The notes under the pieces are model-generated. The model did no database searches. It had not been told where the DNA came from and was given only the letters and a program-made list of their open reading frames with translations. Shown piece after piece: positions 37,686 to 64,000 of a stretch of DNA of 64,000 nucleotides (the stretch's first letter is position 1; the number at the start of each line of letters is the position of its first letter). This DNA comes from Candidatus Latescibacterota bacterium (GTDB lineage Bacteria > Latescibacterota > UBA2968 > UBA8231), in the NCBI GenBank assembly GCA_022826515.1, contig JAJDUT010000024.1, forward strand, positions 29,277 through 93,276, read 5' to 3'. The position numbers and the translations under genes were made by a program.

Positions 37686-37773
37686 TATGTTCCTCACAGA
37701 GGACAAAAAAAGCTCGGATATGCCCGGACCGGCGCACACCGGTTTGGATCATATCGGCGCTAAGTTCTCGACG

Positions 37774-37822
37774 GGCTATTGGCGAAGTGCTGGCAGGCGC
37801 AGCCAATAGCCTCTTTTTATTT
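37774..37822 (+). other. strong hairpin with a T-run pointing against the local genes
   Basis: A perfect 10-base stem GGCTATTGGC / GCCAATAGCC (37774-37783 and 37802-37811) is followed on the plus strand by TCTTTTTATTT. It lies between the DUF1111 gene and the receptor gene, both on the minus strand, so it has terminator form only for plus-strand transcription, where no gene is seen. In the minus direction it could still act as a processing or stability hairpin. Confidence 0.5.
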
Positions 37823-37875
37823 ATACGTTATAGCGTCGTACTAACTCGTTACATCGTTCCTCTTGTAAGCCGCAA

Positions 37876-39270
37876 TCACAGCGACTGCAAAAAGGCCACG
37901 AGCGCGTCCCGGTCGCTCTGGTCTAGTTGGCGCACAAGCTCCCGCGCTGTTTCGGCCTCGCCGCCGTGGAACATGATGGCTTCCATCAGCGTGCGGGCCC
38001 GTCCATCGTGCAGATACGCTGGGATGCCGTTGACCGTTGCCGTCAGGCCAATGCCCCACAGCGGCGGCGTGCGCCACTCGCGGCCGTCGGCCTCAAAGTC
38101 GGGACGGTCGTCGGCCAATTCTTCCCCCATATCGTGCAACAGCAGATCCGTGTAGGGATGAATGGTCTGGTTGGCTAAGGCCGCAATCTCGTGGTGGCCC
38201 GTTTGCAGGGTGGGGATGTGGCACCCCGAGCACTGGGCTGTAGCAAAGACCTCTTCGCCGCGCAAAGCCTGCGGATCGTCGATGTTGCGGCGTGCGGGCA
38301 CCGCTAGGGTTTGTACGTAAAAGGTGTTGATATCCAGTGTCTCTTGGCCAATTTCCGGGTCGTCTTGGTGGTCGTCCATTTGCGGCTGGCCGGCGGTGGA
38401 TTCCTCGGGGAAATAGGGGTTGGTGATGCCCATGTCCTGTTGGTAGGCTCCGGCGATCTGCTGCAACAGGTCGGGATTGTTGGCCTTGAGGCCAAAGCGG
38501 CCTAATTCGGTCTGTTGCGTGCGGAAGTTGTACACCCGATTGGGGCGGCCGGATATGCCGTCGCCATCGCTGTCGCCGGGGTCGGCCAGCGCCAGAATGG
38601 TTTCTTCGGGGATGGCTTCGAGCAGGCCGCGGCCAAAAACCGGCGGGGCCATGCGCGGCGAAAACAGGACGTCCGCCGGCAGCGGTTGATAAGTTTCTAC
38701 TACGTCGTACACCGGAAAGCGCAGGGAGTACGCTGTGCCGTCGGCAAAATGGCGGGTCTCCTCAAAGTAGGTGACGTCGATCCGCGCCTCGGGTGCGACC
38801 CCGAAAACGGCGCGGTCCCCAATCTGTTCGCCAAAGCCCGGCACCGGCTGTGGTGCACCCGGTACTGCGGGATTGGTGCCGGGCAGGCTGACTCGCATGA
38901 GCATGGAGCCGACAAAAGGGGAGACCTCGCCAAACCCCTCGCGCCCCCGGCCATCGCGGGCGTGACAGCCCACGCACGAGGTCTGATTGAAAACCGGTCC
39001 TAGCCCGTGCCCCACTTCGGCCGGCGAGGTGACAAAGACCTGTTCAAAGGCCGCGTCTCCGGCCAAAAAGCGGTCCAGGTCCAGTCCATCCAAAGAGGGG
39101 ATGGGGTTTTCAAACGCCAAACTGCTGGCGTCAAAAACCGTCGCCGCCCCGCCGGACAGGGCGCGGTCGTCCTCCACGGGAGTCGGGTCTAACCCCCGGT
39201 CGTCGCCGCAGTGGGTGAGTGTAGCTAGCAGGGCCATATAGTAGAGTATGGACTTACGAGTAATGATCAT
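37876..39270 (-). CDS. di-haem oxidoreductase of the DUF1111 family
   Basis: A 464-residue exported protein, probably a lipoprotein (LLATLTHC near the N-terminus). Two c-type haem sites are visible: CVGCHARDGRG (about 98-102) and CSGCHIP (about 340). The region between them (LMRVSLPGT, RFGLKANNPDLLQQ) is typical of the DUF1111 thiol-oxidoreductase-like di-haem family, often encoded with imelysins in iron-uptake loci, as here. Its exact electron partners are unknown. The weak ribosome-binding site makes the start moderately certain. Confidence 0.9.
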   Translation of the reverse strand: MIITRKSILYYMALLATLTHCGDDRGLDPTPVEDDRALSGGAATVFDASSLAFENPIPSLDGLDLDRFLAGDAAFEQVFVTSPAEVGHGLGPVFNQTSCVGCHARDGRGREGFGEVSPFVGSMLMRVSLPGTNPAVPGAPQPVPGFGEQIGDRAVFGVAPEARIDVTYFEETRHFADGTAYSLRFPVYDVVETYQPLPADVLFSPRMAPPVFGRGLLEAIPEETILALADPGDSDGDGISGRPNRVYNFRTQQTELGRFGLKANNPDLLQQIAGAYQQDMGITNPYFPEESTAGQPQMDDHQDDPEIGQETLDINTFYVQTLAVPARRNIDDPQALRGEEVFATAQCSGCHIPTLQTGHHEIAALANQTIHPYTDLLLHDMGEELADDRPDFEADGREWRTPPLWGIGLTATVNGIPAYLHDGRARTLMEAIMFHGGEAETARELVRQLDQSDRDALVAFLQSL

Positions 39271-39293
39271 TGCGAGAAACGTATTTAATTAGG

Positions 39294-39321
39294 AATTACG
39301 AATTACGAATTACGAATTAGG
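39294..39321. repeat. 7-base tandem repeat (AATTACG) x4
   Basis: Three exact AATTACG units and a fourth AATTAGG lie in the 67-nt gap between the DUF1111 and imelysin genes. A small palindromic GGGAATTCC follows. This looks like a short simple repeat of replication slippage. Confidence 0.85.
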
Positions 39322-39337
39322 GTTGGGCCGGGAATTC

Positions 39338-40414
39338 CTAATTCCCTAACACCAGCGGTAGGATATTTTCCTCTAAGGTCTGCTGAACCTTGGCTACTGC
39401 GGCCTGCGCCGTTTCGATTTGGTCCCGATCCGAGGCAATGGCGTCGCGGAAGGGGTACTGGATGCGGCCGATCTCGTTGATGGCCGTTTGGATTTCCTCT
39501 TTGAGCCGTTGATCGAGGTCGGCGTCGGCTTGGCGGATGAATTCGTCCAAGCCCGGGCCGGTGCCCGCGTAGTCGCCGGTATAGACGTGCAGGACGCTGC
39601 GGAGGTTGTTCTGGAAGTCGGCAATAGAATTGAAGCTAAATTGGGACTCTACGAGGCGGGTGTCTTGCTCGACGAAGGGGTCGGCGATTTTGCCGTTGGC
39701 GACCTCGTCGCAGATGCCGATCATGCCGCTGACCATTTCCTGGACTGCCGACTGGGCGGACGGATACGCGTCGCTGCCACTACCGGCGTTGCGGACCTTT
39801 TGGCCAAAGTTGCCGCCGGAGGAGATCCAGCTATTGTGCAGGGCGCTGGCCGTGTCCCGCAGGTCTTGGGTCGTGGCGATCAGATAGGCAAACTCGCGCT
39901 CAGTGAAATCGGCCGCAGTCTTGCTGCCGCCTTCGTCAAAGAGCAGGTACTCGATGGTGTGGAAGCCCTTGAGGGTTCCGTCTAGACTGCCCACGTACGC
40001 GGCCGTCAAGTCGTTGTCGCTGGCCAATACTCCGTCCAAGTCCGTGCGGTTGACCGGCCAACTGTCGAGTGCTGGATCGTAGCCGTTGAAGTCCACCGGC
40101 CCAAAGAGAAATCCCTCGCTGGCTTCCCAGGGGATGCGCGTGGCCACCCAAGCGTTGCGGGCCGCACTGAGGTTTTCAGGCGTAGGATCGCTGCTCAGGG
40201 CCTCGACTGCGGCAAGCAGTTCGCCGGACCGCTCGTCCAAGTCCGCGTACGTGGCAATGACGACGTTGTCGGTGAAATTGTCCAAGATGGGCCCAAAGTC
40301 GAACTCGGCCTCGGCTGGCCCGGTGGGCTCGTCGCTGTCGTCGCCGCAGCCGGCAATGAACAACAGGCTACAAGCGGCTAGTCCGATCCCCAATCGCAAG
40401 AATATGGCTTTCAT
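39338..40414 (-). CDS. imelysin family lipoprotein (iron-regulated, M75-like)
   Basis: A 358-residue lipoprotein with a clear lipobox (LLFIAGC). The helical imelysin fold is marked by ARNAWVATRIPWEASEGFLFGPV and by the HxxE motif in GFHTIEYLLFD. Imelysins such as IrpA and EfeO-like proteins act in periplasmic iron uptake; proteolysis has not been shown for most. The neighbouring di-haem DUF1111 gene and the haem operon support an iron role. AAGGGAG precedes the ATG. Confidence 0.93.
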   Translation of the reverse strand: MKAIFLRLGIGLAACSLLFIAGCGDDSDEPTGPAEAEFDFGPILDNFTDNVVIATYADLDERSGELLAAVEALSSDPTPENLSAARNAWVATRIPWEASEGFLFGPVDFNGYDPALDSWPVNRTDLDGVLASDNDLTAAYVGSLDGTLKGFHTIEYLLFDEGGSKTAADFTEREFAYLIATTQDLRDTASALHNSWISSGGNFGQKVRNAGSGSDAYPSAQSAVQEMVSGMIGICDEVANGKIADPFVEQDTRLVESQFSFNSIADFQNNLRSVLHVYTGDYAGTGPGLDEFIRQADADLDQRLKEEIQTAINEIGRIQYPFRDAIASDRDQIETAQAAVAKVQQTLEENILPLVLGN

Positions 40415-40494
40415 AAGGGTAGCTCCCTTTTGTCAAAATTGAAACTTAGCGCACAGGTGACTTCCACCCGTGCCCGGTTTCACAGTGAATGTTT

Positions 40495-41751
40495 TTAAAA
40501 CTGAAATCCCAGCCCCAAGCTCAGGGTGTTTTCAGGGTTAAAGCGGGCGGCACCCAGCCGCCGCATGGCGTAATCAGCCTTGAGTATTACGGTTTCTTCC
40601 ATGTTGTAGTTTGCGCCCAAGGTATAGACCCGGCGCGCAAAGCGCGGATTGTCAAAGGTCTCGTCCGGGACCGCGGCCATGCTGTCGTACGCGTCCAAGC
40701 GGATGAACAGGTCCAAGCGGTTGGGCGAGGGAGCAGCCAGCCAAGGCAGGACGTCGTAGCCGACTTCGACGAAAGCCGCATAAGCCGCCCGGGCTACTGG
40801 CGAGCGCAAGACGTCGAGATTGTTCGATAGGGTGCGGTTGCGGGCGCTGACGAGGGCGGCGTTCTGCAGATGCCCATAGAGATATAGCCCGCGCGCGCGG
40901 ACCCGCCCCCAGTCCAAGCTGCCGTGCACATCAACGATGGAGACGTGCGCGTCTATCCCTTCCATATCGGGCTTGGGGCGGTTGTCGGCGCTGTCGCCGC
41001 GATAGCCGGAAACACCCAGCACACAGTGCGGCGCGAGCTGATAATCGAGGCGTCCGACCCAAGCCATATTGGTCGCCTGAATCGTCTCAAAGCGCTTTTG
41101 GTGGCCGCCGACGATCCAGTTTTGCGAGCTGAAGCCGGTCGCGTCTAGGCCATTGATTAGCTGGAGCTGATAGCGCCAGCTCCGGTAGGCACCGGAGACC
41201 TCCACGCCGGTCTCGTGCCAGAGGGCTGGAATGATGGAGGTCTCGGCTTCCGCGCGCCGGGAGCCAAAGAAATCGGCTGGATGGAAGCGATGGCTCAAGT
41301 GGCCCACGGCGACGTAGAAATGCCCCAAGCGGACGCGGAAGGCATCGCTGAAGGTCCGCTCGACGGCCAACTCCTCGACGACGACTTCGCCGCCTTTTTC
41401 GATTTCCTGCTCAAACTCGCCGAACTCCTCAAACTCCAATTCCAGCGCCGCACCAGCCCCACCGTGCTCAAATTCTACCTCGGCTTCTAGCTCCGTATCC
41501 TTGAGCAACTCGACTTCTAATTCGAGCGCGAGGCGGGTGATGTCGATGGTGGCGCGACTGTCTGGGGGGGAACCGTTGGGACCGCTTTTTTGGTCAGGGC
41601 CGAAATCGAAATAGGAATAGAGCATCTCGCCGTAGCCTTCTAGATGGAAGGACGGCTTTGCCGAGGCGTTTGCGTCCTGCACGGATAGAAAAGCGAGAAG
41701 GGTAAGTAGCTGAAAAATAGGGAGATAAGGTCTGTTAGGTTCGCGTCGCAT
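40495..41751 (-). CDS. porin-like outer-membrane beta-barrel protein
   Basis: About 418 residues from the chosen ATG at 41751. A signal peptide (LLTLLAFLSVQDANASA) precedes alternating hydrophobic/polar strands of a barrel, opening with FHLEGYGEMLYSYFDF and ending in LSLGLGFQF, whose terminal Phe is typical of outer-membrane barrels. An unusual acidic run (ELEFEEFGEFEQEIEKGGE) lies near residue 105. It could be a porin or a metal-binding barrel; placed upstream of the imelysin it may pass iron. The start is uncertain; the frame is open upstream to 41874. Confidence 0.8.
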   Translation of the reverse strand: MRREPNRPYLPIFQLLTLLAFLSVQDANASAKPSFHLEGYGEMLYSYFDFGPDQKSGPNGSPPDSRATIDITRLALELEVELLKDTELEAEVEFEHGGAGAALELEFEEFGEFEQEIEKGGEVVVEELAVERTFSDAFRVRLGHFYVAVGHLSHRFHPADFFGSRRAEAETSIIPALWHETGVEVSGAYRSWRYQLQLINGLDATGFSSQNWIVGGHQKRFETIQATNMAWVGRLDYQLAPHCVLGVSGYRGDSADNRPKPDMEGIDAHVSIVDVHGSLDWGRVRARGLYLYGHLQNAALVSARNRTLSNNLDVLRSPVARAAYAAFVEVGYDVLPWLAAPSPNRLDLFIRLDAYDSMAAVPDETFDNPRFARRVYTLGANYNMEETVILKADYAMRRLGAARFNPENTLSLGLGFQF

Positions 41752-41847
41752 GGATTGAATAAAGATTCGTAATATCGCTATTACAAATTTTCTGTTAATA
41801 AAACCAAAGTTTTCTTTAATAATCTTTTGTTTTATATGACAAACAAA

Positions 41848-41874
41848 AGTATAGATAGTATTTTTATCTGTCAA
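41848..41874 (-). promoter_or_regulatory. candidate sigma-70 promoter upstream of the porin-like gene
   Basis: On the minus strand TTGACA (complement of 41869-41874) is followed after 15 nt by TATACT (complement of 41848-41853). The spacing is short, and the surrounding 120 nt are strongly AT-rich. The same AT-rich stretch is the only intergenic region before the iron island. Confidence 0.5.
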
Positions 41875-52791: not shown

Positions 52792-52990
52792 CGCACTGCG
52801 ACATCTCTGTCGCACTTTCTCTAACCTATTGTAAAAAATTGAGATAGAAGTTTAATAGAAGGGCAAGTGCGTCGAAAGGGAGCAATCAAAGCGCGATTTG
52901 GCGTTTTGCGCGAACTGCCCCAATAATTTTTAACTCTTTTTTTTACAATCAGTTATGGTTTGGTAGCTCCGCTTTGGCACGGAATGTGCT
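52792..52990 (+). promoter_or_regulatory. sigma-54 promoter with upstream repeats controlling the RND/ACP gene set
   Basis: TGGCACGGAATGTGCT at 52975-52990 has GG (52976-52977) and GC (52988-52989) exactly ten bases apart, the sigma-54 -24/-12 rule, with one mismatch from the usual TTGC (GTGC). About 170-190 bases upstream are two direct CGCACT repeats (52792-52797 and 52811-52816), 19 bp apart, the second within the inverted repeat TGCGAC/GTCGCA; these could be activator sites. The whole block is repeated at 63624-63819. Confidence 0.8.
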
Positions 52991-53034: not shown

Positions 53035-54213
53035 ATGAAAAACAAAGTGCTCTATTCAATCATAGCTCTGCTGACGATTATGCTGGCCAGTCAGAGCGAG
53101 ACTGTGACCGGCTTTTTCGAGGCCGACCACGTAGAGGCTAAAGACCGCTCTCAGCCCCAAGCAGTAAGACCCGCCCCCGCTGATACCCGCAAGCCCGTAG
53201 CCATAATGCAGGTGAATGAGGGGGCGCTGGTTCGAGAAGTCGTCTCGTACGGATACGTCAGCGCCACGAGGACGGCTGAAATTACGGCCCAAGTCTCCGC
53301 TAGGATCAATCGACTGCTCATCGAGGAAGGCGACTGGGTAGAGCAAGGCGATACCGTAGTAGAGTTAGAGGACGACTTGCTCAGGATAGCCCAGCAACAG
53401 GCGCGGGAGGAACTGGATAAGGCCCTCACCAAATACGCCAACATCGCCTTCTTCACCAGCGATCGCGATAACAGGGAACAAATGTTCAACCGGCTGGGTG
53501 TCGATTCGACCAATGTCAACGATGTCGAAGCATCCAGACTCATTTTTAGCAAGTCGAGAAAGGAACTGGCCGCGGACCAAGTCGGGCTCGACGAAGCTAG
53601 GCTGAAACTCAAAAGGGCGAAGATCGAACTTGAGCACGCGATCATAGGGGCATCATTCGCTGGATACGTGTCGGAAGTAGTCGTGGACAGAAGCGACTTC
53701 GTCAACAAGGGCGATGTTGTGGCGCGGGTCGTGTCGCTGGATCGGCTCCGCCTCGAAATGGATGTGTTGGAGACCGAGATCAGGCATATACGGCTAGGCG
53801 CGAGGGCTGAGATAGAGTTAGCTGCGCTGCCTGGAAAAACGGTGAGCGGGCGCGTCGTGTCGGTGAACCCAACTATAGATGCGGAACGTAGAACGTGCAG
53901 AGTCCTAGTAGAGATAGAGAACCCGGATAGGGCCGTGCGGCCCGGCATGTTCGCCGATGTACGCGTCGAGGCCGTCCGCTACAAAGATAGGCTGTTGGTG
54001 CCGAGGGAATCCCTACTCACTCGCAACGACAGGAAAGTGGTGTTCGTGTACGAGGGCGGGCGGGCTAAATGGCGCTACGTCGAAACCGGCGAGGAAACTG
54101 ACGATATGGTGGAAGTGCGGGAAGGCTTGGCCGCTAGGGATACCCTGATTACGGCCGGTCACTTCAACTTGACCCACAACGCTCAAGTCATCGTCGTCAA
54201 TGAGGAACTCTAA
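53035..54213 (+). CDS. RND efflux periplasmic adaptor
   Basis: A 392-residue HlyD/AcrA-type adaptor. A short hydrophobic N-terminus anchors it in or across the inner membrane; there is no lipobox. Residues from ISARINRLLIEEGDWVEQGDTVVEL form the first lipoyl half, then a long helical hairpin (about 100-205), IIGASFAGYVSEVVVDRSDFVNKGD the second lipoyl half, and the beta-barrel and membrane-proximal domains. AAGGAGG lies before ATG 53035. Its stop overlaps the permease start (TAATG), so the two are co-translated. No TolC-like channel gene is in the window. Confidence 0.92.
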   Translation: MKNKVLYSIIALLTIMLASQSETVTGFFEADHVEAKDRSQPQAVRPAPADTRKPVAIMQVNEGALVREVVSYGYVSATRTAEITAQVSARINRLLIEEGDWVEQGDTVVELEDDLLRIAQQQAREELDKALTKYANIAFFTSDRDNREQMFNRLGVDSTNVNDVEASRLIFSKSRKELAADQVGLDEARLKLKRAKIELEHAIIGASFAGYVSEVVVDRSDFVNKGDVVARVVSLDRLRLEMDVLETEIRHIRLGARAEIELAALPGKTVSGRVVSVNPTIDAERRTCRVLVEIENPDRAVRPGMFADVRVEAVRYKDRLLVPRESLLTRNDRKVVFVYEGGRAKWRYVETGEETDDMVEVREGLAARDTLITAGHFNLTHNAQVIVVNEEL

Positions 54214-57200
54214 TGCCTGCCAATCTCACCGCCTCGTCCGTGCGGCGGCCGGTGACAACGGTTGTCGTCTATGCCGCCGCCGTCCTGTTGGGACTCTATT
54301 CCTTTTATCAAATGGGGGTGGACTTCCTGCCGGACGTCGAAGTTCAGAAACTGGCGGTGAAGACCGAGTGTCCGGGCGTGGCTGCCATCGACATTGAGGA
54401 GGAAGTCACGCAAACGATAGAGGCCGCGCTGAGCGGCCTCTACAACATCAGGAACATGCGCTCGGTATCGCGGGACGATCTGTCGATGGTGTACTTGGAG
54501 TTCAGTTGGGACGCCGACATGGACCTGACCTTCATCAAGGTCCGCAACAAGCTCGATAGAATCCAACAACTGCTACCCGATTTCGCCGCAAGGCCGACGA
54601 TTTTGCGCTTCGATCCGTCATCATCGCCGTTTATGATGCTCGCGGTCACCGGGGATCGCATCGAGCGCCCGGTTTCGGATGAGGACTATCGGGCGGCTTT
54701 GGTCGAACTCAAAGACATCGCCGAAGCGGTAGTAAAACCCCGGCTGGAACAAATCCAAGGCGTGGCACAAGCCCTCGTAGCCGGTGGGTTGGAAAAGGAA
54801 GTCCAAGTCGAGATAGACCGCCGCAAATGTCTCGCCTATGGTGTGGAGTTCGCCGATGTCGAGGCGGCCTTGACGCGGTTTAATGCCAATTCTGCGGGAG
54901 GGACCATCCGCGAAGGTAACTTGGTGTACCCGCTGAGGATAGAAGGCCGCTACCGGGACATTGAGGACATAAGAAAAGTGCCGGTCAAACGCGTCGATAA
55001 CACGACGGTTTTCCTTGAGGACATTGCCACTGCAAAGTACGGGTTTAAAGAGCCGACCGGCTACAACCGGCTCAACGGCAAGGATACAGTCACGCTGTAT
55101 CTGTACAAGAAGTCCGGGGATAATACGGTAAAGACTGCGCGGAAAGTAGAAGCGGCGCTAGCGGCACTGGCACTTGAGTTCCCCGATTTCAGGGTGATTC
55201 CGGTTTTTGACCAAGCGGAATTCATCCAAGAGGCCGTGGACAATGTCCTCTCCTCATTGTACTGGGGAGGTTTTTTCGCGGTGCTCGTCCTATTTCTGTT
55301 CATCCGCGACTGGAAGAGTCCACTAATAGTGGGGCTGGCGGTGCCCGTATCCATTGTCATCACCTTTGCAGTGATGTACAGCATTGGCATCCATTTCAAC
55401 GTGGTTTCCCTCGGCGGACTGGCCTTGGGCATTGGCATCTTGGTCGATAATTCCATAATCGTCCTCGACAATGTGCAGCGGTTCCGGAGACAGGGTTGCT
55501 CGCTGGTAGAAGCGGCCATTGAGGGCACTAGGGAAGTCAGTCTGCCGATTGCCGCCTCGACGTTCACTACGGTGTCCGTCTTCTTGCCGCTGATGTACAT
55601 CGAAGGGCTAGCCGGGGCCTTGTATTTCGACCAAGCCATCACGGTCGTAGCGTCGCTGACCCTATCCCTATTCGTGTCGATTACCTTGGTCTCGGTGCTG
55701 CTGTCGCGCGGCGATACAAGGGACTGGCTGTCGCGCCTACTGGACAAGTTGCCCTTGCTGACTAGACTCGGCGACCGCGCCGATAGGCTGGGCGAGGGCA
55801 CGATTCGGCACTACGAAAGGCTGCTGGCAGTCTGCCTGCAAAACAAGGCGGTGACGCTAATCGCGATTGTGGTCGCGGCTGGGTTGGGTTTGTCTCTGCT
55901 GTCGGCGGTTGACCGGGAGTTAATGCCCACAGTTGACCGGAAGCGGCTGGTGCTCGAAGTGGAATTCCCGGAGTCGTCCATGCTACGGCGGACTTTGGCC
56001 GAGGTAGCCGAGATTGAACAGAGCTTGAGGGCGGACCCAGAGGTCCAAACAGTTTATTCATCCGTGGGAATAACGGATATAGATTTCGACCAATCGTACC
56101 GCCCAGGGGCCAACAAGGCCGTGATAGAAGTGAAAATTGCCCCAGAGGCCGATACCGATGCCGTCGCGGCGAGGCTGGAAGCCTCGGGCCGCACGGCTAC
56201 TGGATACGAACTGAGTGTGCGGCAGCCACCGTCCTTTCTCGAGCATTTCTTCCCGCAAAAGACCAGCGATTTCGACGTGCGCCTAAGCGGCGAGGACTGG
56301 GAGGAACTGGCCGCGGTGAGCAAGGCCATTGTGGCGCTGATGGAGGACATCCCGCGTTTTGCCCACGTCCGGTCGAGCCTCACTGAGGGGGCCGGTGGGT
56401 ACGAAGTGGCTATTGACCACGGCCAGGCCGCGCTGTACGGCATTGACGCGACAGACCTCGCCGATTTTCTCCGCCGCGAGGTACAGGGCAGCAAGCCGAC
56501 CCAGTTGGCCGACTATTCGCGCGAGGTCGATGTCAAATTGGTTGTGGGCCGGGAAGGGACCCTTGGGCTGGAAACGCTAAAGCGGTTGAGCTATCCCATT
56601 CGCCGGCAGGAGCAGACCGTGTACGTACCGGTCGAGCAGTTGGTTTCTATTACGCCCTATACGGGCTACGCCGCGCTGCACCGAAAAAACCAGAGCCGCA
56701 CCGTGGAAGTGGGTGCCGAGCTGGTGCAAGGGAATGCGGCCGCGGCCAAGCGGCAATTGGAGGCCGCCGCGAGCAGGGTAGAAAAACCCCAAGACGTTTG
56801 GCTGGAGATTGGGGCAGTTGACGACGAGATGAAGGAAATGTTAGACGACTTGGTGCTGACGCTGATAGTTTCCTTTTGCTTGGTATTTGCCATCCTCGCC
56901 GCCAAGTTTGAATCGCTCAAAATTCCATTTGTGGTCATTTCGGTCGTGCCGCTGGCGCTCGTCTGCGTAGTTGCGACGCTCTATGCGATGGGTCAGACGC
57001 TCAATTTTATGTCGGTGATGGGGGCGGTGGTACTCGTCGGCATTGTGGTCAACGACTCTATCGTCAAGGTGGATTTTATCCGCAACCGCCACCTCGCCGG
57101 GGCCGACCTGAATACCGCCATAGTCGAAGCCGGCCGCAAGCGGCTGCGCCCTATAGCTATGACCACGGTGACGACGGTGTTGGGTTTGCTGCCGATGGCA

Positions 57201-57353
57201 CTTTCTGCGGGTCAGGGCGCGGAATTACACCAGCCGATGGCTTGGGCGATTATCGGCGGGTTGACGCTATCGACCGGGCTGACGCTGGTTGTGGTGCCGG
57301 TGGTTTACTCCTTGGTGTGCGGCCGGGTGCGGGCGCAGATGCCAAAAAGTTGA
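54213..57353 (+). CDS. full-length RND efflux permease
   Basis: A 1046-residue inner-membrane pump of standard RND length: TM1 at about 12-32, porter loop, TM2-7, second porter loop, TM8-12. The proton-relay Asp of TM4 lies in GILVDNSIIVLDNVQRF, where the second Asp of AcrB is Asn. FMSVMGAVVLVGIVVNDSIVKVDF marks TM10. VTTVLGLLPMALSAGQGAE marks TM11. A substrate cannot be read. It is the first of two RND systems in this gene set. Confidence 0.94.
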   Translation: MPANLTASSVRRPVTTVVVYAAAVLLGLYSFYQMGVDFLPDVEVQKLAVKTECPGVAAIDIEEEVTQTIEAALSGLYNIRNMRSVSRDDLSMVYLEFSWDADMDLTFIKVRNKLDRIQQLLPDFAARPTILRFDPSSSPFMMLAVTGDRIERPVSDEDYRAALVELKDIAEAVVKPRLEQIQGVAQALVAGGLEKEVQVEIDRRKCLAYGVEFADVEAALTRFNANSAGGTIREGNLVYPLRIEGRYRDIEDIRKVPVKRVDNTTVFLEDIATAKYGFKEPTGYNRLNGKDTVTLYLYKKSGDNTVKTARKVEAALAALALEFPDFRVIPVFDQAEFIQEAVDNVLSSLYWGGFFAVLVLFLFIRDWKSPLIVGLAVPVSIVITFAVMYSIGIHFNVVSLGGLALGIGILVDNSIIVLDNVQRFRRQGCSLVEAAIEGTREVSLPIAASTFTTVSVFLPLMYIEGLAGALYFDQAITVVASLTLSLFVSITLVSVLLSRGDTRDWLSRLLDKLPLLTRLGDRADRLGEGTIRHYERLLAVCLQNKAVTLIAIVVAAGLGLSLLSAVDRELMPTVDRKRLVLEVEFPESSMLRRTLAEVAEIEQSLRADPEVQTVYSSVGITDIDFDQSYRPGANKAVIEVKIAPEADTDAVAARLEASGRTATGYELSVRQPPSFLEHFFPQKTSDFDVRLSGEDWEELAAVSKAIVALMEDIPRFAHVRSSLTEGAGGYEVAIDHGQAALYGIDATDLADFLRREVQGSKPTQLADYSREVDVKLVVGREGTLGLETLKRLSYPIRRQEQTVYVPVEQLVSITPYTGYAALHRKNQSRTVEVGAELVQGNAAAAKRQLEAAASRVEKPQDVWLEIGAVDDEMKEMLDDLVLTLIVSFCLVFAILAAKFESLKIPFVVISVVPLALVCVVATLYAMGQTLNFMSVMGAVVLVGIVVNDSIVKVDFIRNRHLAGADLNTAIVEAGRKRLRPIAMTTVTTVLGLLPMALSAGQGAELHQPMAWAIIGGLTLSTGLTLVVVPVVYSLVCGRVRAQMPKS

Positions 57354-57376
57354 TTCACTGCTCAGGACAACGTGCT

Positions 57377-58873
57377 ATGCGTGCGATACGCTGGACTCTT
57401 AACCATCCCATCGCGGTGTTCACCACAGTAGCTACCCTCGGCATACTGGCAGCGGCGAGCTTTGCCGTCATCTCGGTCGAGCTATCGCCGCCGAGCCAAC
57501 TGCCCGAGTTGCGCCTTGGTGTGCAATGGCCTGGGGCCTCGGCGTTCACCGTAGAATCCGCGGTAACGCGGCCGCTGGAGTCGTTGGTCCAGCAGTTGGA
57601 CCACGTCACCAGCATCCGCTCGCAGACTCGGGAAGGCCACGCCGAAATCGCGGTGCAATTCGATAGCAAAGCGAATATTGACTTGCTGGAAGTAGAATTG
57701 AACGAGCGAGTCCACCCGCTCTACGAGACCATGCCCCAAGGCGTCTTATGGCCAGTGATCCAGCGCTCGGTGCCGGAGGAATTGGCGGACTTGGCCGGTT
57801 TCCTCAGCTACCGCTTGTACGGCGACCGGAAGCCGGGTGAGTTGCGGGAGTTCGCCGAAGCTCGCATCCAAAAAGCCTTGCTCGCAGTGGCCGGCATCAA
57901 AGACGTGCAACTAGAAGGAGGCAAGCCGCTCGAACTGGTGATCGAGATAGACAGGAACGCCGCGACCAGCGCCGGTCTTGCCAGCGAGGATATAGCGGCG
58001 TTTCAGCGGCAGTTGAGCGGTGGCAAAGCGAGCTTGGGAACGCTATGGGACGCTGACACGGCGAAAAAGGTGCTCTTTGACGGGAGCTACGACAATTTGG
58101 AAACGCTTAGGCAAATGCCCGTCGGCCCGTCCGCGGTCCACTTGGGACATATTGCGCGGATCTATTGGGACGCGCCCGACGATTTTAGCCGCATCCGCAT
58201 CAACGGGAAAAACTCCGTATTGATCACCATAGAGAAGTATCCAGGAGTGGATCTGCTCGAAACGTCCGCGGCGGTCAAGGCCGCGCTGGCGAGTGCTATG
58301 CAGGACGCCCCGCCGGGTATTGGCTTGGTCAAGGAGCTGGACAAAGGCGAGGATTTGCAAAAGGAATTGGCCAAGATCGGCAACCGCTCCTTTTTGGCGG
58401 TGCTGTTCATTGCCGCTATCGTCGTCTTCACATACAAGAGAGTGTCGGCGACCCTGCTTATATGGGGCACCATCCTGCTGGTGCTGGCCTATACTGTGGG
58501 TCTGCTCCATCTGGCGGGTATGACTCTGAACGTGTTGACCTTGGCCGGTTTGACTGTGGGTTACGGCCTGAGCGTCGATAACTCGGTCGTGGTGTACGAC
58601 AGCGTCCAGCGCCACCTAACAACGGGTGGCGGCTCGGCCCAGCAGCGCATCCTCGCCGGGGTCGCCCGAGTGCTGAGACCGCTTTTGGCCTCCAACCTGA
58701 CGACCGTCGGAGCCTTGCTCCCGGTCTTTTTCCTGTCGCAAACTCTGCAACTCTATTTCAAACCCGTGGCCTTGGCGCTCGGTGCCACGGTGCTCTTTTC
58801 CTTCCTCGTCTCCTGCCTACTGCTGCCGTCCCTGATGTTGGTGTTGGACCAGCGGCGAGAAAGCACGGCTTAG
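57377..58873 (+). CDS. N-terminal half of a split RND permease (TM1-6)
   Basis: A 498-residue protein. One helix (about 12-32), a porter-type loop (VESAVTRPLESLVQQLDHV ... LRQMPVGPSAVHLGHIA), then five helices, with the proton-relay Asp in GYGLSVDNSVVVYDSVQRH and LLASNLTTVGALLPVFFL at the end. This matches residues about 1-500 of a normal RND pump. The TAG stop is followed at once by the ATG of the next gene. ATG 57377 is used; the longer in-frame start lies inside the preceding permease gene. Confidence 0.92.
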   Translation: MRAIRWTLNHPIAVFTTVATLGILAAASFAVISVELSPPSQLPELRLGVQWPGASAFTVESAVTRPLESLVQQLDHVTSIRSQTREGHAEIAVQFDSKANIDLLEVELNERVHPLYETMPQGVLWPVIQRSVPEELADLAGFLSYRLYGDRKPGELREFAEARIQKALLAVAGIKDVQLEGGKPLELVIEIDRNAATSAGLASEDIAAFQRQLSGGKASLGTLWDADTAKKVLFDGSYDNLETLRQMPVGPSAVHLGHIARIYWDAPDDFSRIRINGKNSVLITIEKYPGVDLLETSAAVKAALASAMQDAPPGIGLVKELDKGEDLQKELAKIGNRSFLAVLFIAAIVVFTYKRVSATLLIWGTILLVLAYTVGLLHLAGMTLNVLTLAGLTVGYGLSVDNSVVVYDSVQRHLTTGGGSAQQRILAGVARVLRPLLASNLTTVGALLPVFFLSQTLQLYFKPVALALGATVLFSFLVSCLLLPSLMLVLDQRRESTA

Positions 58874-60520
58874 ATGTCTCGAACATATCTTGCCTTGCTC
58901 GGCTTCTGCTGCAAGCATCGCCGGATCATGCTGGCGGTACTGGTGTTGCTATGGGGCCTGCCGGTCTGGATGCTGCCCGACTCCATTGGCGAGGACGGCG
59001 CAGTGGCTCGCGTGTACGAGGACTGGTGGATGGACCCACAGTTCGACGAGGAGACCAAACCGCTGCTGTTTAAGGTACTGGGCGGGGCCTCGTATCTGTT
59101 TTTTCAAAAGGTCCACAAGGGGGAGGTCTTTGGCCGGACTGAGGGGCAGAGCTTACAGATCGTTTTTACTATGCCGAGCAACGTGCCGGTCCAAAAGATG
59201 GAGGAACTATGTTTCGGGTTTGAAGCGGCGCTAGCCCCGTACATGGAACGAATAGAAAAAGTGGCGGTCAACTACTCGTCGAAGTCGGCGCTGATGGAGG
59301 TCGTCTTGGCCGAGGATGCCGACCGGCTTACTTTCCCCAAAAAGGTGTACGCAGCCCTATCCGGACACGCGGCCAATGTCGGCGGGGTGGGGATTTCGGT
59401 GAGCGGGTTTGGCTTTCAGCATTATCAGTCCCTGTTGAGCGACTTTGCCCAGTTTTCGCTCGAGGCCAAGGGCAGCGACTATCTCAAGCTGCGGGAGATA
59501 GCCGAACAATTCGCCGACAAACTCGCCCAGAACAAGCGCATCCGCGATGTGGATATAGACGCGGTGGCCCGGTACAGCACTGATGAGCCGTACGAGATGA
59601 TCGGTCGCTTAGATGCTAGGGCGATCAGTGCATACGGGCTGGACAGCGACCGCGTCGCCGAGGCGTTGCGGCAGCAGACGACCGCGGTGTCGCGGAGAAG
59701 TCTTTGGGTGGTCGGCGAGTTGCAGGACGTGGCCGTCAAGTTTCGCGGGGCCGATGTCGTCTCTAGCGACGAGGTGAGGGGGGTGGATCTCGGCGACCAC
59801 GTGCGGCTCGGCGATCTGATCCGGCTCGAAAAAAGCAGGATACAACCCGAAATCGTGCGCGAAGACCAAACGTATATGCGCCGGATAAATCTCAACTACT
59901 TAGGCGCACGCGAGCACGGCGAAAAACTCATTGATTTGCTCATAGACCGCGCCGAGTTTCCCTATGGTTTCAGCATCGCCCGCGAGGCGTCCTATTGGTA
60001 CTGGGAAAAGGATAATAAAAAGGAACTGATGGCCATTTTGGGCGTGGCCGTGCTGGTCGTGTGGATGATCGCGGCTTGCCTCTTCGAGTCTTGGACCAAG
60101 CCTTTCTTGGTGCTGTTAGCGGTTCCAATGGCGCTGATTGGCCTGTTCGATGCGTTCTACTTTTTAGGGGCCAGCTTTGACACCGGCGGCTATATCGCGG
60201 TGCTCTTTTTGGCTGGCATAGCAGTCAACAACGCCTTTCTCATGCTGTACCAGATGGACGAGAAAGCCAAAGCCGGGGCAGGCGATCTCGCGGCCGAGGT
60301 ATTCGCGGCCGCGGCCCACCGCCTCAAGCCGATTGCCATTACCACCCTGACCACGTTGGCCGGGCTCCTGCCCATCGTATTGTTCGAGGATACCGAGAGC
60401 ATCTGGTATCCGCTGGCTGTGGGCGTGACCGGCGGGTTGGTGGCTTCATCGGTTTTGTTGCCGATCTACCTACCTATGCTGTACCTGAGCCTGCATAGGG
60501 CGACGGTAAAAACCAAATGA
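58874..60520 (+). CDS. C-terminal half of the split RND permease (TM7-12)
   Basis: A 548-residue protein that begins with a helix (about 15-35), then a large porter-like loop with VQKMEELCFGFEAALAPYM and FRGADVVSSDEVRGVDLGDHVRLGDLI (in parts), and five helices ending in PIYLPMLYLSLH. The TM10-like AGIAVNNAFLMLYQMDEKA and TM11-like TTLTTLAGLLPIVLFEDTE match the second half of an RND pump. Its start codon follows the stop of the first half with no gap, so the two probably assemble as a heterodimeric repeat unit. It is 8 nt before the rhodanese gene. Confidence 0.9.
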   Translation: MSRTYLALLGFCCKHRRIMLAVLVLLWGLPVWMLPDSIGEDGAVARVYEDWWMDPQFDEETKPLLFKVLGGASYLFFQKVHKGEVFGRTEGQSLQIVFTMPSNVPVQKMEELCFGFEAALAPYMERIEKVAVNYSSKSALMEVVLAEDADRLTFPKKVYAALSGHAANVGGVGISVSGFGFQHYQSLLSDFAQFSLEAKGSDYLKLREIAEQFADKLAQNKRIRDVDIDAVARYSTDEPYEMIGRLDARAISAYGLDSDRVAEALRQQTTAVSRRSLWVVGELQDVAVKFRGADVVSSDEVRGVDLGDHVRLGDLIRLEKSRIQPEIVREDQTYMRRINLNYLGAREHGEKLIDLLIDRAEFPYGFSIAREASYWYWEKDNKKELMAILGVAVLVVWMIAACLFESWTKPFLVLLAVPMALIGLFDAFYFLGASFDTGGYIAVLFLAGIAVNNAFLMLYQMDEKAKAGAGDLAAEVFAAAAHRLKPIAITTLTTLAGLLPIVLFEDTESIWYPLAVGVTGGLVASSVLLPIYLPMLYLSLHRATVKTK

Positions 60521-60527
60521 GGCGAAC

Positions 60528-60986
60528 ATGGATACCGGGGTGAAGCGAATTGTCGGAAAGGCATTGCTAGTGGTGGCGGTCGGCGTCTCCAGCGGCGCGT
60601 TGCACAGCTTGGCCGTTGATGATGTCCAAAGGCCAGAAAATGGTGTGCATGTGATTGATCTAGCGATGGCCAAACGGCTCTTTGATAAAAAGGCGGCCGT
60701 TTTCGTGGACGCTCGGTCGTCTTGGCCCTACCAGTTGGGGCATGTGCCCGGTGCGCTCAATGTCCCACCGTCGGCGACCCCCGAGACCTTCAACACGGTA
60801 CTGGCCGACTTGTCCAAGGATACCGCGCTGGTCGTTTACTGTTCGGGTGAGACGTGTAACTTGGGCAGTAAGCTGGCGCAAAGGCTCGCCGAGGAAATGG
60901 ATTTCATCCGGATCTACGTCTTCGTCGGCGGGTTTCCCCAATGGGAGGAAGCGGGTTATCCCGTAGAATCGGAGGGGCCTTTCTAA
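60528..60986 (+). CDS. membrane-anchored rhodanese-domain protein
   Basis: A 152-residue protein with an N-terminal hydrophobic segment (about 8-28) and a single rhodanese domain. The active-site loop is VVYCSGETCN, with the sulfur-carrying Cys first; FVDARSSWPYQLGHVPGALNVP and GGFPQWEEAGYPVE are standard. It would carry persulfide sulfur, or relay it, on the outer face of the membrane or as a periplasmic protein. The stop overlaps the next start (TAATG). Confidence 0.92.
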   Translation: MDTGVKRIVGKALLVVAVGVSSGALHSLAVDDVQRPENGVHVIDLAMAKRLFDKKAAVFVDARSSWPYQLGHVPGALNVPPSATPETFNTVLADLSKDTALVVYCSGETCNLGSKLAQRLAEEMDFIRIYVFVGGFPQWEEAGYPVESEGPF

Positions 60987-61477
60987 TGGACAAACTTGTA
61001 CTCAGGCCCTATCAGGCTCTATCGATCCGCTTGGTGCTGGGCGGTGTCTTCGTTTGGGCAGGGACCGCAAAGCTCGTGCAGATACCGGCTTTCGTCGAGA
61101 CGGTCGCGGCCTTTGACATTCTGCCGGTGGATTGGGTCGCGCCGTTTGCGCTGTCAGTTGTCTGGATTGAACTGATCGCTGGCGGCCTCCTGCTATTGGA
61201 CATTTGGCCGCGCAGCAATGCGTTGGTCGTGTTGGGACTGTTAGTGGTTTTCAGCGCGGCGCTCGGTATCAATATGTATCGCGGCAACGATGTGATGTGC
61301 GGTTGTTTTGGGGGCGACGGGGACGCTTCGCTGGCTTGGAGCCTGTTGCGCGATGTGTTGTTGGCTGGGGGAGCTACGGTGCTACTAGTGCGGAAGGAGC
61401 AGAGAAATACTGCACGACGAGACCATCATTCAAAACGGAATCCAACCGATGTGCTGGAGGTTATAGACAATGGATAG
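60986..61477 (+). CDS. MauE/DoxX-like membrane protein
   Basis: A 163-residue protein with about four helices. The sequence VRLVLGGVFVWAGTAKLVQIP and GNDVMCGCFGG are typical of the MauE branch of the DoxX-like family, whose CxC-containing members act in disulfide or redox chemistry needed to mature periplasmic proteins. ATG 60986 has GGAGGGG before it; an in-frame extension upstream lies in the rhodanese gene. With the rhodanese it hints at thiol or sulfur chemistry at the membrane. Confidence 0.88.
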   Translation: MDKLVLRPYQALSIRLVLGGVFVWAGTAKLVQIPAFVETVAAFDILPVDWVAPFALSVVWIELIAGGLLLLDIWPRSNALVVLGLLVVFSAALGINMYRGNDVMCGCFGGDGDASLAWSLLRDVLLAGGATVLLVRKEQRNTARRDHHSKRNPTDVLEVIDNG

Positions 61478-61751
61478 GAAAAGACTAGAACACCGCATCA
61501 AGGAGAGGATTGTCAAGGCGCTAGAACTCGACATCGAACCTAGCGACATACCCGATGATGAAGTGCTTTTCGGCGGCGAGCTAGGATTGGATTCGATTGC
61601 CGTGCTTGAAGTTCTCGTCGCTATTGAGGAAGAATTCGAGATTGAAATTGAAGAGGAGAACTTTCGCATCGAAGAATTCTCTTCGATTCGCCAGCTTGCC
61701 GAATATATAGACGGTACACTGGCAAGAAACCATTCAGACAAAACGCATTAA
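61470..61751 (+). CDS. acyl carrier protein
   Basis: A 93-residue acidic, helical carrier. Ser42 in GLDSIAVLEVLV is the phosphopantetheine attachment site. ILE-, Glu-rich helices (EEEFEIEIEEENF) follow as in ACPs of secondary metabolism. It has no fabG/fabF neighbours, so it is not the housekeeping ACP. GGAGG lies before the ATG, inside the end of the MauE-like gene, which it overlaps by 8 nt. Confidence 0.93.
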   Translation: MDRKRLEHRIKERIVKALELDIEPSDIPDDEVLFGGELGLDSIAVLEVLVAIEEEFEIEIEEENFRIEEFSSIRQLAEYIDGTLARNHSDKTH

Positions 61752-61774
61752 ATCCTCAGCGAATCGGATTAATT

Positions 61775-62362
61775 ATGCAACATTATCCCCTTGACCTCAG
61801 CCGATACTTCAATAATGACGGCATCTCTTTCGAGGCCGATGTAGAGGATGGCGATTTCGATGGATTAGGTAATACCTATCCGGCTGAAAAATTGCCGCCT
61901 TCAACACAGCTCACTACCCTATGCGGGACTCCGATGCTGTTTCCCGACAAATGCGACGGTGCCTTTAATAATGTCGTTCTCGAAGCTCAGCAGTTTGTGG
62001 TATCTTCGGGCAACTATTCCATGTTAGCGGTCATCGGAGCCGCTGACTCTGGACGCTATGCGGACGGCGGATACCAAGATCTGATCGTCTTCTCGTATCG
62101 GGAAGCTGAGGAAAGCGCGACGTTGAGATTGAAAGACTGGATATGTATAGAGGAGCAGCGCCGAGGAGGACGCGAAGCATTGCGCTGTCCCTATCTGCAC
62201 GGCCCCACGGGTCGTTGCGCGATGTCTGAACGCGGATATGAGACCTATCCGACTCTTTGGTACGAGGAAATCGAGATAGACGAGTCAAAAACGCTGGAAC
62301 GCATACATCTGCCAGACAATCCCTGTATGCACATTTTTTCCATGACCTTGATAGCTCGATGA
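61775..62362 (+). CDS. free-standing beta-sandwich protein of unknown role
   Basis: A 195-residue protein without a signal peptide. DLSRYFNNDGISFEADVEDG, GAFNNVVLEAQQFVV, YSMLAVIGAADSGRY and the closing LPDNPCMHIFSMTLIAR resemble a small beta-sandwich found as a C-terminal carbohydrate-binding-type module in secreted glycoside hydrolases. Here it stands alone, in the cytoplasm, between an ACP and a BtrH-like gene, so it may bind a carried intermediate. Weak ribosome-binding site. Not recognised beyond this. Confidence 0.7.
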   Translation: MQHYPLDLSRYFNNDGISFEADVEDGDFDGLGNTYPAEKLPPSTQLTTLCGTPMLFPDKCDGAFNNVVLEAQQFVVSSGNYSMLAVIGAADSGRYADGGYQDLIVFSYREAEESATLRLKDWICIEEQRRGGREALRCPYLHGPTGRCAMSERGYETYPTLWYEEIEIDESKTLERIHLPDNPCMHIFSMTLIAR

Positions 62363-62385
62363 TTTCCGCAAAAGGAGCAAGTAAA

Positions 62386-63399
62386 ATGAAGCGAAGAGCT
62401 GCTATATACCATTTGGATCGTCGGCCCATGTACTATGGCTGTGCAGGCACGACTATGGCCGCACTGCAATACTACAATCCCAAATTGGCTGATCCGCTAG
62501 CGTACTACGCCTCTCTGCTAAGTTGGACTTTTATCTTTGACAAGGAACGGGGCATGCCTCTCAAAGTCCCGGCCAGCCAGCTCATGCAGCGGAATTTGCA
62601 GCACTTGTACGGCATTACCCAAGATGAAATTTGCAGGGACAGTTTTGATGAGTTATGGCTGGCGATTGAAGACCTGTTGGTACAAGGTCGAGTCGTCGTC
62701 GTATGGGTTGACGCCAACGATATTGACGACAGTGCATTCCATTACGACCGAGTTCCCGGGGAAATTGAACTCATGGTCATTTGCGGTTGCGACCACAGCA
62801 ACAATACCCTGGACATCATCGTCAACCCGCAGCGTTTCCACGGCCAAATACCGCTCTCCTGCCTTGCGGACATCTTGATGTTCAATCTGGCCTATGATTA
62901 TCGAGTGCCTGCCAGTCTGGTCCCTTGGCCTGAAAGCCAAGGCAAACAGCTTTTGCAAGCAGAGATTTTGGGAATGCAGCACGGACGCGCTATAGAAACG
63001 ATGGAAACAGGATTCTCCGCTATCAGCTTGTTTATAGAGGAAATGAAAGCCCGCGCTGGTTCCAGCGATGAGGTGCTGCGTCCGTGGATGAGCGAAGCAT
63101 TTGATCAGTTGGCTTTTACTGGGCCGCAACGGTCTGTCTTCGGCCAGACGCTCGAACGACTCGCCGATCTATATGGCGACCAAAAGCTAACGACCATCGC
63201 CCAGCGCTTTCTCGCTACTGCCCAGAGCTGGGAGGTCGCCCGCAATATGTTCTTCAAAGGCTGCAAGCGGGCACCGGCCGCCATGTTGCCGCGCATTTGC
63301 AAAAGAGTTGAAGCGCTTCTTGTACAAGAACAGGAACAAGCCTATATGCTCCAGACTTGGCTGCAAAAATCCTCTGACCAGCCCAAGTATGCTATCTGA
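62386..63399 (+). CDS. BtrH/C39-like protein, possible acyl transferase using the ACP
   Basis: A 337-residue protein starting at ATG 62386 after AAGGAGC. The N-terminus RRPMYYGCAGTTMAALQYY, with Cys19 followed by a Thr-Thr and a helix, and the middle strands VVVVWVDANDI and ELMVICGCDHSNNTLDIIVN resemble the papain-like N-terminal domain of BtrH, which moves an acyl group from a carrier protein (BtrI) to butirosin. The usual His in the second strand is not evident at the expected spot (GEIELMV). The helical C-terminus (about 230-337) is of unknown kind. The ACP gene close upstream supports a carrier-linked role. A strong terminator follows. Confidence 0.6.
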   Translation: MKRRAAIYHLDRRPMYYGCAGTTMAALQYYNPKLADPLAYYASLLSWTFIFDKERGMPLKVPASQLMQRNLQHLYGITQDEICRDSFDELWLAIEDLLVQGRVVVVWVDANDIDDSAFHYDRVPGEIELMVICGCDHSNNTLDIIVNPQRFHGQIPLSCLADILMFNLAYDYRVPASLVPWPESQGKQLLQAEILGMQHGRAIETMETGFSAISLFIEEMKARAGSSDEVLRPWMSEAFDQLAFTGPQRSVFGQTLERLADLYGDQKLTTIAQRFLATAQSWEVARNMFFKGCKRAPAAMLPRICKRVEALLVQEQEQAYMLQTWLQKSSDQPKYAI

Positions 63400-63508
63400 C
63401 AGCTACGTGCGTTCTCCCTAATTTGCTAGCACTACCGGCGAGTGGACCGTGGGTTCCATTGAACGCGGTCCGCCTCTTGGTCTGCTGATGACAAATTGCT
63501 TGACGGTT

Positions 63509-63550
63509 GAGCGATGAGATGTACCTGACATTTCATCGCTCATTTTTTTT
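63509..63550 (+). terminator. rho-independent terminator of the RND/ACP gene set
   Basis: The stem GAGCGATGAGATGT / ACATTTCATCGCTC (with one mismatch near the loop) is followed by ATTTTTTTT. It lies about 110 nt after the BtrH-like gene. In the 522-nt gap 63400-63921 it separates this gene set from the second sigma-54 control region. Confidence 0.9.
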
Positions 63551-63623
63551 CAAATTCACGAAATCCCTGCGATTAAATCCCAAGAAATTTAACTGAAGCA
63601 CCACTTACTCGATGCAGTTTTAG

Positions 63624-63819
63624 CGCATTGGCCCCTTTTAACGCATTTGCCCTAAGCTATTGTAAAGACGTGAGATAGAAGAAAATAGAGTGTTAGATGC
63701 GTCGAAGGGGTGCAATGGGAGCGCGATTCGGCGTCTTGTATGAAATGCTTTGATTTCTTGTAACTCTTTGTGTAACAATAGATTATGATTTTTTGGATCA
63801 GTTTGGCACGGAATCTGCT
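63624..63819 (+). promoter_or_regulatory. second copy of the sigma-54 control region
   Basis: TGGCACGGAATCTGCT at 63804-63819 again has GG and GC ten bases apart (63805-63806, 63817-63818). About 60 percent or more of the preceding bases match the region before 53035, including ATTGTAAA, GAGATAGAAG, TGCGTCGAA-GGG-GCAAT, GCGCGATT-GGCGT, AACTCTTT, and TTTGGCACGGAAT. Two CGCATT direct repeats (63624-63629, 63642-63647) sit where CGCACT pairs occur in the other copy. It controls the gene at 63922. Confidence 0.8.
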
Positions 63820-63921: not shown

Positions 63922-64000
63922 ATGAACCGCTTTTATCAACGTCCGCTCTCACCTGCTTGGAGAACGGCTCGCTCTCGTGCTGCGCTGGTAGAGCCCTCGT
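63922..64000 (+). CDS. start of a gene of unknown function (runs off the window)
   Basis: ATG 63922 has a strong AGGAGGG five bases upstream (63911-63917) and opens a frame reading MNRFYQRPLSPAWRTARSR and on to ALVEPS at the right edge. The first residues are basic and show no known motif. It is expressed from the second sigma-54 control region, so it belongs to the same regulon as the RND/ACP gene set. It could be a precursor peptide or an enzyme; the sequence ends too early to tell. Confidence 0.6.
   Translation, partial: MNRFYQRPLSPAWRTARSRAALVEPS

Follow-up and report, generated by a model that had tools for sequence, protein, structure and literature searches.

A sigma-54-linked operon of a Latescibacterota bacterium that probably serves the modification and export of a ribosomal peptide

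Introduction

What would an acyl carrier protein (ACP) and a BtrH-like enzyme do in one operon with a double RND exporter? The question is raised by nine genes in a window of 64,000 nucleotides, the whole stretch analysed here, from a Candidatus Latescibacterota bacterium (contig JAJDUT010000024.1, positions 29,277 to 93,276). A preliminary description had placed the genes between one sigma-54 promoter and one terminator, proposed that the ACP and the BtrH-like enzyme act on carrier-bound substrates, that the rhodanese and MauE-like proteins perform thiol or disulfide chemistry and that the RND pumps export, and held that no described pathway has this set. Its observation is confirmed and its interpretation partly supported; from the gene content, homologies and predicted folds of the operon, an upstream element that it shares with other operons, and a peptide family encoded behind that element, the nine genes are probably the arm of a ribosomal-peptide (RiPP-type) system that carries out modification and export.

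Results

Organisation of the operon

Nine ORFs occupy 53035-63399 on the forward strand (Table 1). All are open, with zero internal stops, and neighbours overlap by at most 8 bp or are separated by at most 23 bp, as had been described; Pfam and NCBIfam likewise agree with the earlier assignments of the adaptor, RND, rhodanese, MauE and ACP families.

Table 1. Coordinates of the operon and of the features that flank it in the window.
Feature	Position	Strand	Basis or remark
Shared upstream element, with a sigma-54 (-24/-12) site at its end	52810..52990	+	10 aligned copies; sigma-54 scan
First sigma-54 site, TGGCACGGAATGTGCT	52975-52990	+	one mismatch to the consensus used
RND periplasmic adaptor	53035..54213	+	HlyD_D23, RND_mfp
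RND permease 1	54213..57353	+	ACR_tran, 1046 aa
RND permease 2, N-terminal half, own gene	57377..58873	+	ATG start 57377; same split in G008
RND permease 2, C-terminal half, own gene	58874..60520	+	same split in G008
Rhodanese, hydrophobic N-terminus, Cys105 and Cys110	60528..60986	+	PF00581, 58.8 bits; sequence
MauE/DoxX-like membrane protein with CGC	60986..61477	+	PF07291, 96.8 bits; sequence
Acyl carrier protein, Ser42 in GLDS	61470..61751	+	PF00550, 48 bits
AziU2-like beta-sandwich protein	61775..62362	+	profile against 8gs1_A/7wuw_A; AF2 model
AziU3/BtrH/CcbD/CtaG-fold protein, Cys19, Glu128, Asn147	62386..63399	+	
Intrinsic terminator	63508-63542	+	stem of 15 pairs, eight T
Second element copy, with sigma-54 site TGGCACGGAATCTGCT at 63804	63650..63819	+	alignment, scan
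Start of the co-regulated peptide operon	63923..64000	+	cut by the window end

The second RND permease is also divided between two ORFs in genome G008 (526 and 560 aa) and is a single ORF in G004 (L033, 1123 aa) and G024 (L053, 1118 aa); the split is therefore no error of the window sequence. One adaptor and two RND permeases in a row are the arrangement of MdtABC-type tripartite pumps, which the window shares; it departs from them in the divided permease and in having no outer-membrane channel gene among the nine beside its adaptor and permeases, and its RND proteins score far under the MdtB and MdtC cut-offs of NCBIfam. Neither an ACP-loading enzyme nor, by Pfam and NCBIfam, any adenylation, ligase, ketosynthase or sulfotransferase gene was found among the nine. 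The nearest genome compared, G001, has 33% of sampled 31-mers in common with the window, and this operon recurs in it at the end of a contig. Its AziU3-like protein and the 62386 protein are 99% identical; the 62386 protein also has 99% identity to a protein on contig JAJEFJ010000104.1. Elsewhere in the window, TonB-type receptor, di-haem-like (CxxCH) and imelysin-like genes in a row at 35457-41874 have, by ORF reading only, the look of an iron-uptake cluster.

An AziU2/AziU3-like pair beside a carrier protein

BtrH belongs to butirosin and CcbD to celesticetin, and AziU3/U2 are the subject of Kurosawa et al. 2022. The 61775 protein had been taken for a lone beta-sandwich. A beta-sandwich fold is indeed predicted (AF2 model, pLDDT 92.2; TM 0.84 and rmsd 2.4 to 7wuw_A), but the protein does not stand alone: it is an AziU2 homologue (profile E 3e-30 against the AziU2 structures 8gs1_A and 7wuw_A), and at 11 of 12 loci the AziU2-like gene has an AziU3-type gene no more than 4 kb away. 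The 61775 protein has no family match in Pfam or NCBIfam, and a glycoside-hydrolase meaning, raised by distant hits named alpha-L-fucosidase 2 and beta-glucosidase, was dropped because AziU2 was the sole strong match among solved structures.

For the 62386 product a papain-like fold had been anticipated, and structure prediction returned a papain-like plus helical fold that spans the entire protein, as in the AziU3/CcbD/CtaG superfamily. The profile of an 11-row alignment matched AziU3 at E 1.3e-7; on BtrH_N (PF14399) the protein scored 23.2 bits, under the gathering score of 29.7. Both partners of AziU2/AziU3 (8gs1, 7wuw) are matched, U2 by sequence and fold and U3 by fold and profile sequence, and their genes are adjacent in the window; what differs from azinomycin is the adjoining ACP gene, the lack of a sulfotransferase gene among the nine, and the setting and phylum. 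One paper calls AziU3/U2 of azinomycin biosynthesis functionally an aziridine synthase (PMC12559475). CtaG is called a peptidyl transferase in a second (PMC6772006), which with PDB titles gives CcbD and CtaG carrier-protein partners; these share with the 62386 protein the same full-length fold and a Cys near the N-terminus. The earlier proposal that the ACP and the BtrH-like enzyme handle carrier-bound substrates is borne out to the extent that the closest solved relatives of the enzyme work that way, and by these relatives the pair may perform either transfer of a carrier-bound group (CtaG, CcbD) or ring closure (AziU3/U2).

CtaG variants C11A, H128A and D144N appear among PDB titles. The 62386 protein lacks a CtaG-type Cys-His-Asp triad: Cys19 is kept, and sequence alignment with His/Asp-bearing relatives places Glu128 and Asn147 at the positions of the CtaG His and Asp. 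The CtaG His and Asp are kept in 7 rows of the 11-row alignment, the window clade being without them, whereas Cys19 is present in 24 of 25 alignment rows (the remaining row is a fragment gapped there) and Glu128 in all 12 window-clade rows. The missing His and Asp argue against plain acyl transfer in the window clade and leave Cys-Glu chemistry open. Ser42 of the ACP is invariant among five aligned sequences (5/5), and an ACP-AziU2 fusion protein exists (P0071).

Two further sets of proteins resemble the 62386 product. Paralogues 42-44% identical to it (L023-L028, from G009, G001, G008, G002, G004 and G003) adjoin ABC transporter and adaptor-like genes, in L023 also a DUF1854 protein gene, with no AziU2-like match there; the Cys is replaced in four of the five that have a complete N-terminus. 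A second BtrH-like family, BtrH9, has an invariant His and no conserved N-terminal Cys, and accompanies subtilase-TIGR04066 and ACP genes in other Latescibacterota (L066, L067, L068, L073, L076, L144); it was kept apart from the window family because hhalign gave a probability of only 35% (E 4e-4, over 108 columns).

A long upstream element shared between operons

The single promoter and the closing terminator of the preliminary description were recovered, and one transcription unit is supported; the terminator call rests on its stem size, because the complete scan returned 18 such sites where 13.6 were expected. Unmentioned before was a second copy of the promoter element: the 200 bp preceding 53035 recur ahead of the next operon at 63923, as a shared element of about 190 bp. 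This second copy is matched on contig C60 of G001 (E 1.9e-41) and at four positions in G008. When ten copies were aligned (two from the window, one from G001, four from G008 and three from G004), the sigma-54 core and several upstream blocks were invariant. On their own, sigma-54-like sites occur often in the genus (55 matches with at most two mismatches in 11 genomes, against 3 for the reversed control); the link between the operons therefore comes from the long element and not from the site.

Copies of the element stand in G008 before adaptor-RND1, RND2, peptide and propeller-FGE genes; in G004 before peptide genes, redoxin-ABC-subtilase/TIGR04066 genes and a row of ACP, rhodanese, MauE, glycosyltransferase and BtrH9 genes; and in G001, on C60, before genes for a redoxin, an ABC exporter and a fusion of subtilase and TIGR04066-like domain.

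Several other features neighbour the element. An 18-bp tandem repeat (1.9 copies) lies at 63618-63652, directly ahead of the second window copy. An AAA-ATPase_like/PDDEXK_9 gene (Pfam) repeatedly adjoins element copies on the opposite strand (L140:4305-6125, also L142, L143 and L144), and similar DNA is found in G004, as if inserted or co-duplicated with the element. An FGE-sulfatase-type gene (L139:16936-17829) follows one copy in G008, where G001 has redoxin-ABC-subtilase genes.

A family of precursor-like peptides

The operon behind the second copy had not been seen in the preliminary description. In G001, 97% identical over the element, the DNA continues past the window end into a 91-aa ORF holding MTLHKP, and the next ORF, which begins MIALHKPERATY, is truncated where the contig stops; in G008 and G004 short ORFs of 43 and 46 residues follow the element. 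The peptides have the leader MIALHKPERATYGQAVEAQ and a variable, Cys-rich tail. A whole-database search gave 22 proteins of the family, both query peptides included, at E <=3.2e-6, and their alignment has 12 invariant columns, 11 of them within the first 21 residues and one a Cys. The first 20 or so residues are near-fixed and the remainder varies around C...G...CC, the CC being absent from two of the 22 (P0147 and P0148). A fixed start with a variable Cys tail is precursor-like, being the usual look of a precursor family. Known precursor families were rejected as an assignment, since none of 10 peptides tested matched an NCBIfam model at E <=10, in a search whose HMMER filters drop weak matches.

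In three cases the longest listed contig is identical in size for the peptides and for window-type AziU3 proteins (1,002,347, 47,214 and 8,019 bases), which implies, and does not prove, that both are encoded on the same contigs. A short Cys-rich precursor adjoins system genes in G008, in G004 and, cut by the contig end, in G001. At 6 of 24 loci (L033, L057, L069, L071, L072, L073) other short Cys-rich ORFs were seen no more than about 4.5 kb from a subtilase-TIGR04066 gene, and at a seventh, L075, at about 6 kb; these were picked by eye among many chance ORFs and are weaker evidence.

Gene order and neighbourhoods in related genomes

BLAST found three segments in one order in G008, namely the window at 48-60.5 kb, the window from 63.6 kb on, and G001 C60 at 5.5-16 kb, an order that joins the window-side and C60-side contig ends of G001. 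From G001 and G008 we infer that the redoxin-ABC-subtilase/TIGR04066 genes form a third operon adjacent to these two in the organism of the window. At this place G008 has the adaptor, the RND pair and the peptides behind the element, and has neither the block at window 60517-63616 (rhodanese to AziU3-like) nor the redoxin-ABC-subtilase genes; the modules are therefore separable. A separate subtilase-TIGR04066/AziU2/AziU3 locus lies elsewhere in G008 (L032). On C60 of G001 the fusion gene is followed by a family-5 solute-binding protein gene, a 711-aa histidine-kinase-like ORF, sited where G008 has a Cache histidine kinase, and an NtrC-type regulator gene.

The co-occurrence of RND genes with the enzyme genes that had been predicted was seen at 5 of the 12 AziU2-like loci, the window one of them (RND within 4 kb); an ACP gene lies within that distance at only 5 of the 12. 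These loci are 13 matches minus L054, a contig-end fragment, with the window standing for G001:C49. Around 28 subtilase-TIGR04066 loci, a subset of 46 lower-scoring PF07755 matches, the genes within 4 kb include ACP at 20, ABC at 17, BtrH9 at 6, RND at 4, and rhodanese and MauE at one each; 19 further PF07755 matches of about 250 bits look like plain DgcN and are outside this set. The counts are lower bounds, because 11 of the 28 and 4 of the 12 loci lie within 3 kb of the end of the examined stretch.

Relation to TIGR04066/TIGR04069 peptide-maturation systems

The view that no described pathway has such a set was not supported, as related Firmicutes peptide-maturation sets are published. SacP23 of Paenibacillus polymyxa comprises a precursor, a radical SAM protein, TIGR04066 and TIGR04069 proteins, a subtilase and an ABC exporter, and a Roseburia intestinalis cluster has the same set with no obvious precursor (PMC10731318, PMC4573289). 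A carrier-related protein, a TIGR04066-type protein, a subtilase and an ABC exporter are common to both kinds of system, and SacP23 also has a Cys-rich precursor. Here, in contrast, subtilase and TIGR04066-like domain form a single fused protein, the domain scoring below its cut-off, and there are in addition an AziU2/U3-like pair, a rhodanese, a MauE protein, the two RND permeases and control by sigma-54.

No TIGR04066 protein is encoded at 53-64 kb of the window; C-terminal parts of the subtilase fusion from two relatives reached 116.5 and 127.8 bits on TIGR04066 (cut-off 200), for its N-terminal part the QhpE protease model came nearest, again with a score below cut-off, and the window ACP reached 28.4 bits on TIGR04069 (cut-off 70). 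The cut-off of the radical SAM model TIGR04068 was exceeded in none of 64 phylum genomes; weaker matches occur in 63 of the 64, and in 13 of 14 control genomes. Two weak matches in G001 lie on contigs C17 and C90, and no radical SAM gene was found together with system genes in that genome; weaker matches do occur near the subtilase-TIGR04066 gene, 1.7 kb ahead of it in G008 and at a distance of some 12 kb in G031. The window system is a relative of a known kind; given the missed cut-offs and the lack of a radical SAM gene with the system in G001, it is not filed as a TIGR04066/TIGR04069 member.

Discussion

A ribosomal-peptide system could work as follows. An NtrC-type regulator would switch the operons on together, and the ACP would present a thioester-bound group, in which the AziU2/AziU3-like pair may close a ring or which it may transfer to the peptide; the cargo of the ACP and the action of the pair on it are the most uncertain part. 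The subtilase would remove the leader in the cytosol and the ABC exporter would move the peptide to the periplasm, where the rhodanese, MauE and redoxin could set the redox state of its cysteines. The adaptor and RND pair would then expel it, together with an outer-membrane channel whose gene would lie elsewhere. The thiol or disulfide function proposed earlier for rhodanese and MauE is supported as likely, and RND export is supported.

It is unlikely that the ACP and the pair instead build a non-peptide small molecule, as for azinomycin or closthioamide, which the RND pump exports while the peptides are separate and merely co-regulated. The closest structures (AziU3/U2, CcbD with its PCP, and CtaG) do act in small-molecule pathways, and G008 has the pump and peptides without ACP, U2 or U3 at that place; against this stand the absence of adenylation, ligase, ketosynthase and sulfotransferase genes among the nine, and the peptide-processing setting in which ACP genes are found at 20 of the 28 subtilase-TIGR04066 loci. 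More improbable still is that the AziU3-like protein is a scaffold or pseudoenzyme in what is mainly a stress-responsive efflux and thiol-repair unit. Glu128 and Asn147 in place of the CtaG His and Asp, and the Cys missing from four of five ABC-linked paralogues, would suit such a role, and RND, rhodanese and MauE might fit envelope stress; the near-universal Cys19, the constant Glu128, the ACP Ser and the proximity of AziU2-like and AziU3-type genes at 11 of 12 loci speak against it. Efflux by itself was rejected as a reading, as it leaves the element common to the peptide genes unexplained.

A literature search covering few subscription journals, in which absence is weak evidence, found neither AziU2 by name, nor DUF1611 with subtilase, nor BtrH with acyl carrier protein, acyltransferase and RND; no four of RiPP, acyl carrier protein, subtilisin-like, leader peptide and BtrH came together, and none of the papers listed joined papain-fold carrier-dependent enzymes with ribosomal peptides.

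Under the ribosomal-peptide reading, an uncultured bacterium appears to use one control sequence to turn on genes that modify and export small Cys-rich peptides. Somewhat doubtful, if a real possibility, is a new ribosomal-peptide class, defined by a carrier-borne modification that a heterodimer of the AziU2/AziU3 type, its active site being Cys-Glu, would install, and by exit through a double RND pump; a strained ring is one example of such a modification, an acyl or aminoacyl group another. If true, this would join the carrier-protein-dependent papain-fold enzymes of azinomycin, closthioamide and the lincosamides with ribosomal peptides, through an enzyme pair of a type so far known from the antitumour compound azinomycin. 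The locus supplies precursor sequences, from an uncultured phylum, that can be put to the test, and it offers a defined context for studying the roles of the carrier protein and of TIGR04066 in the Firmicutes clusters.
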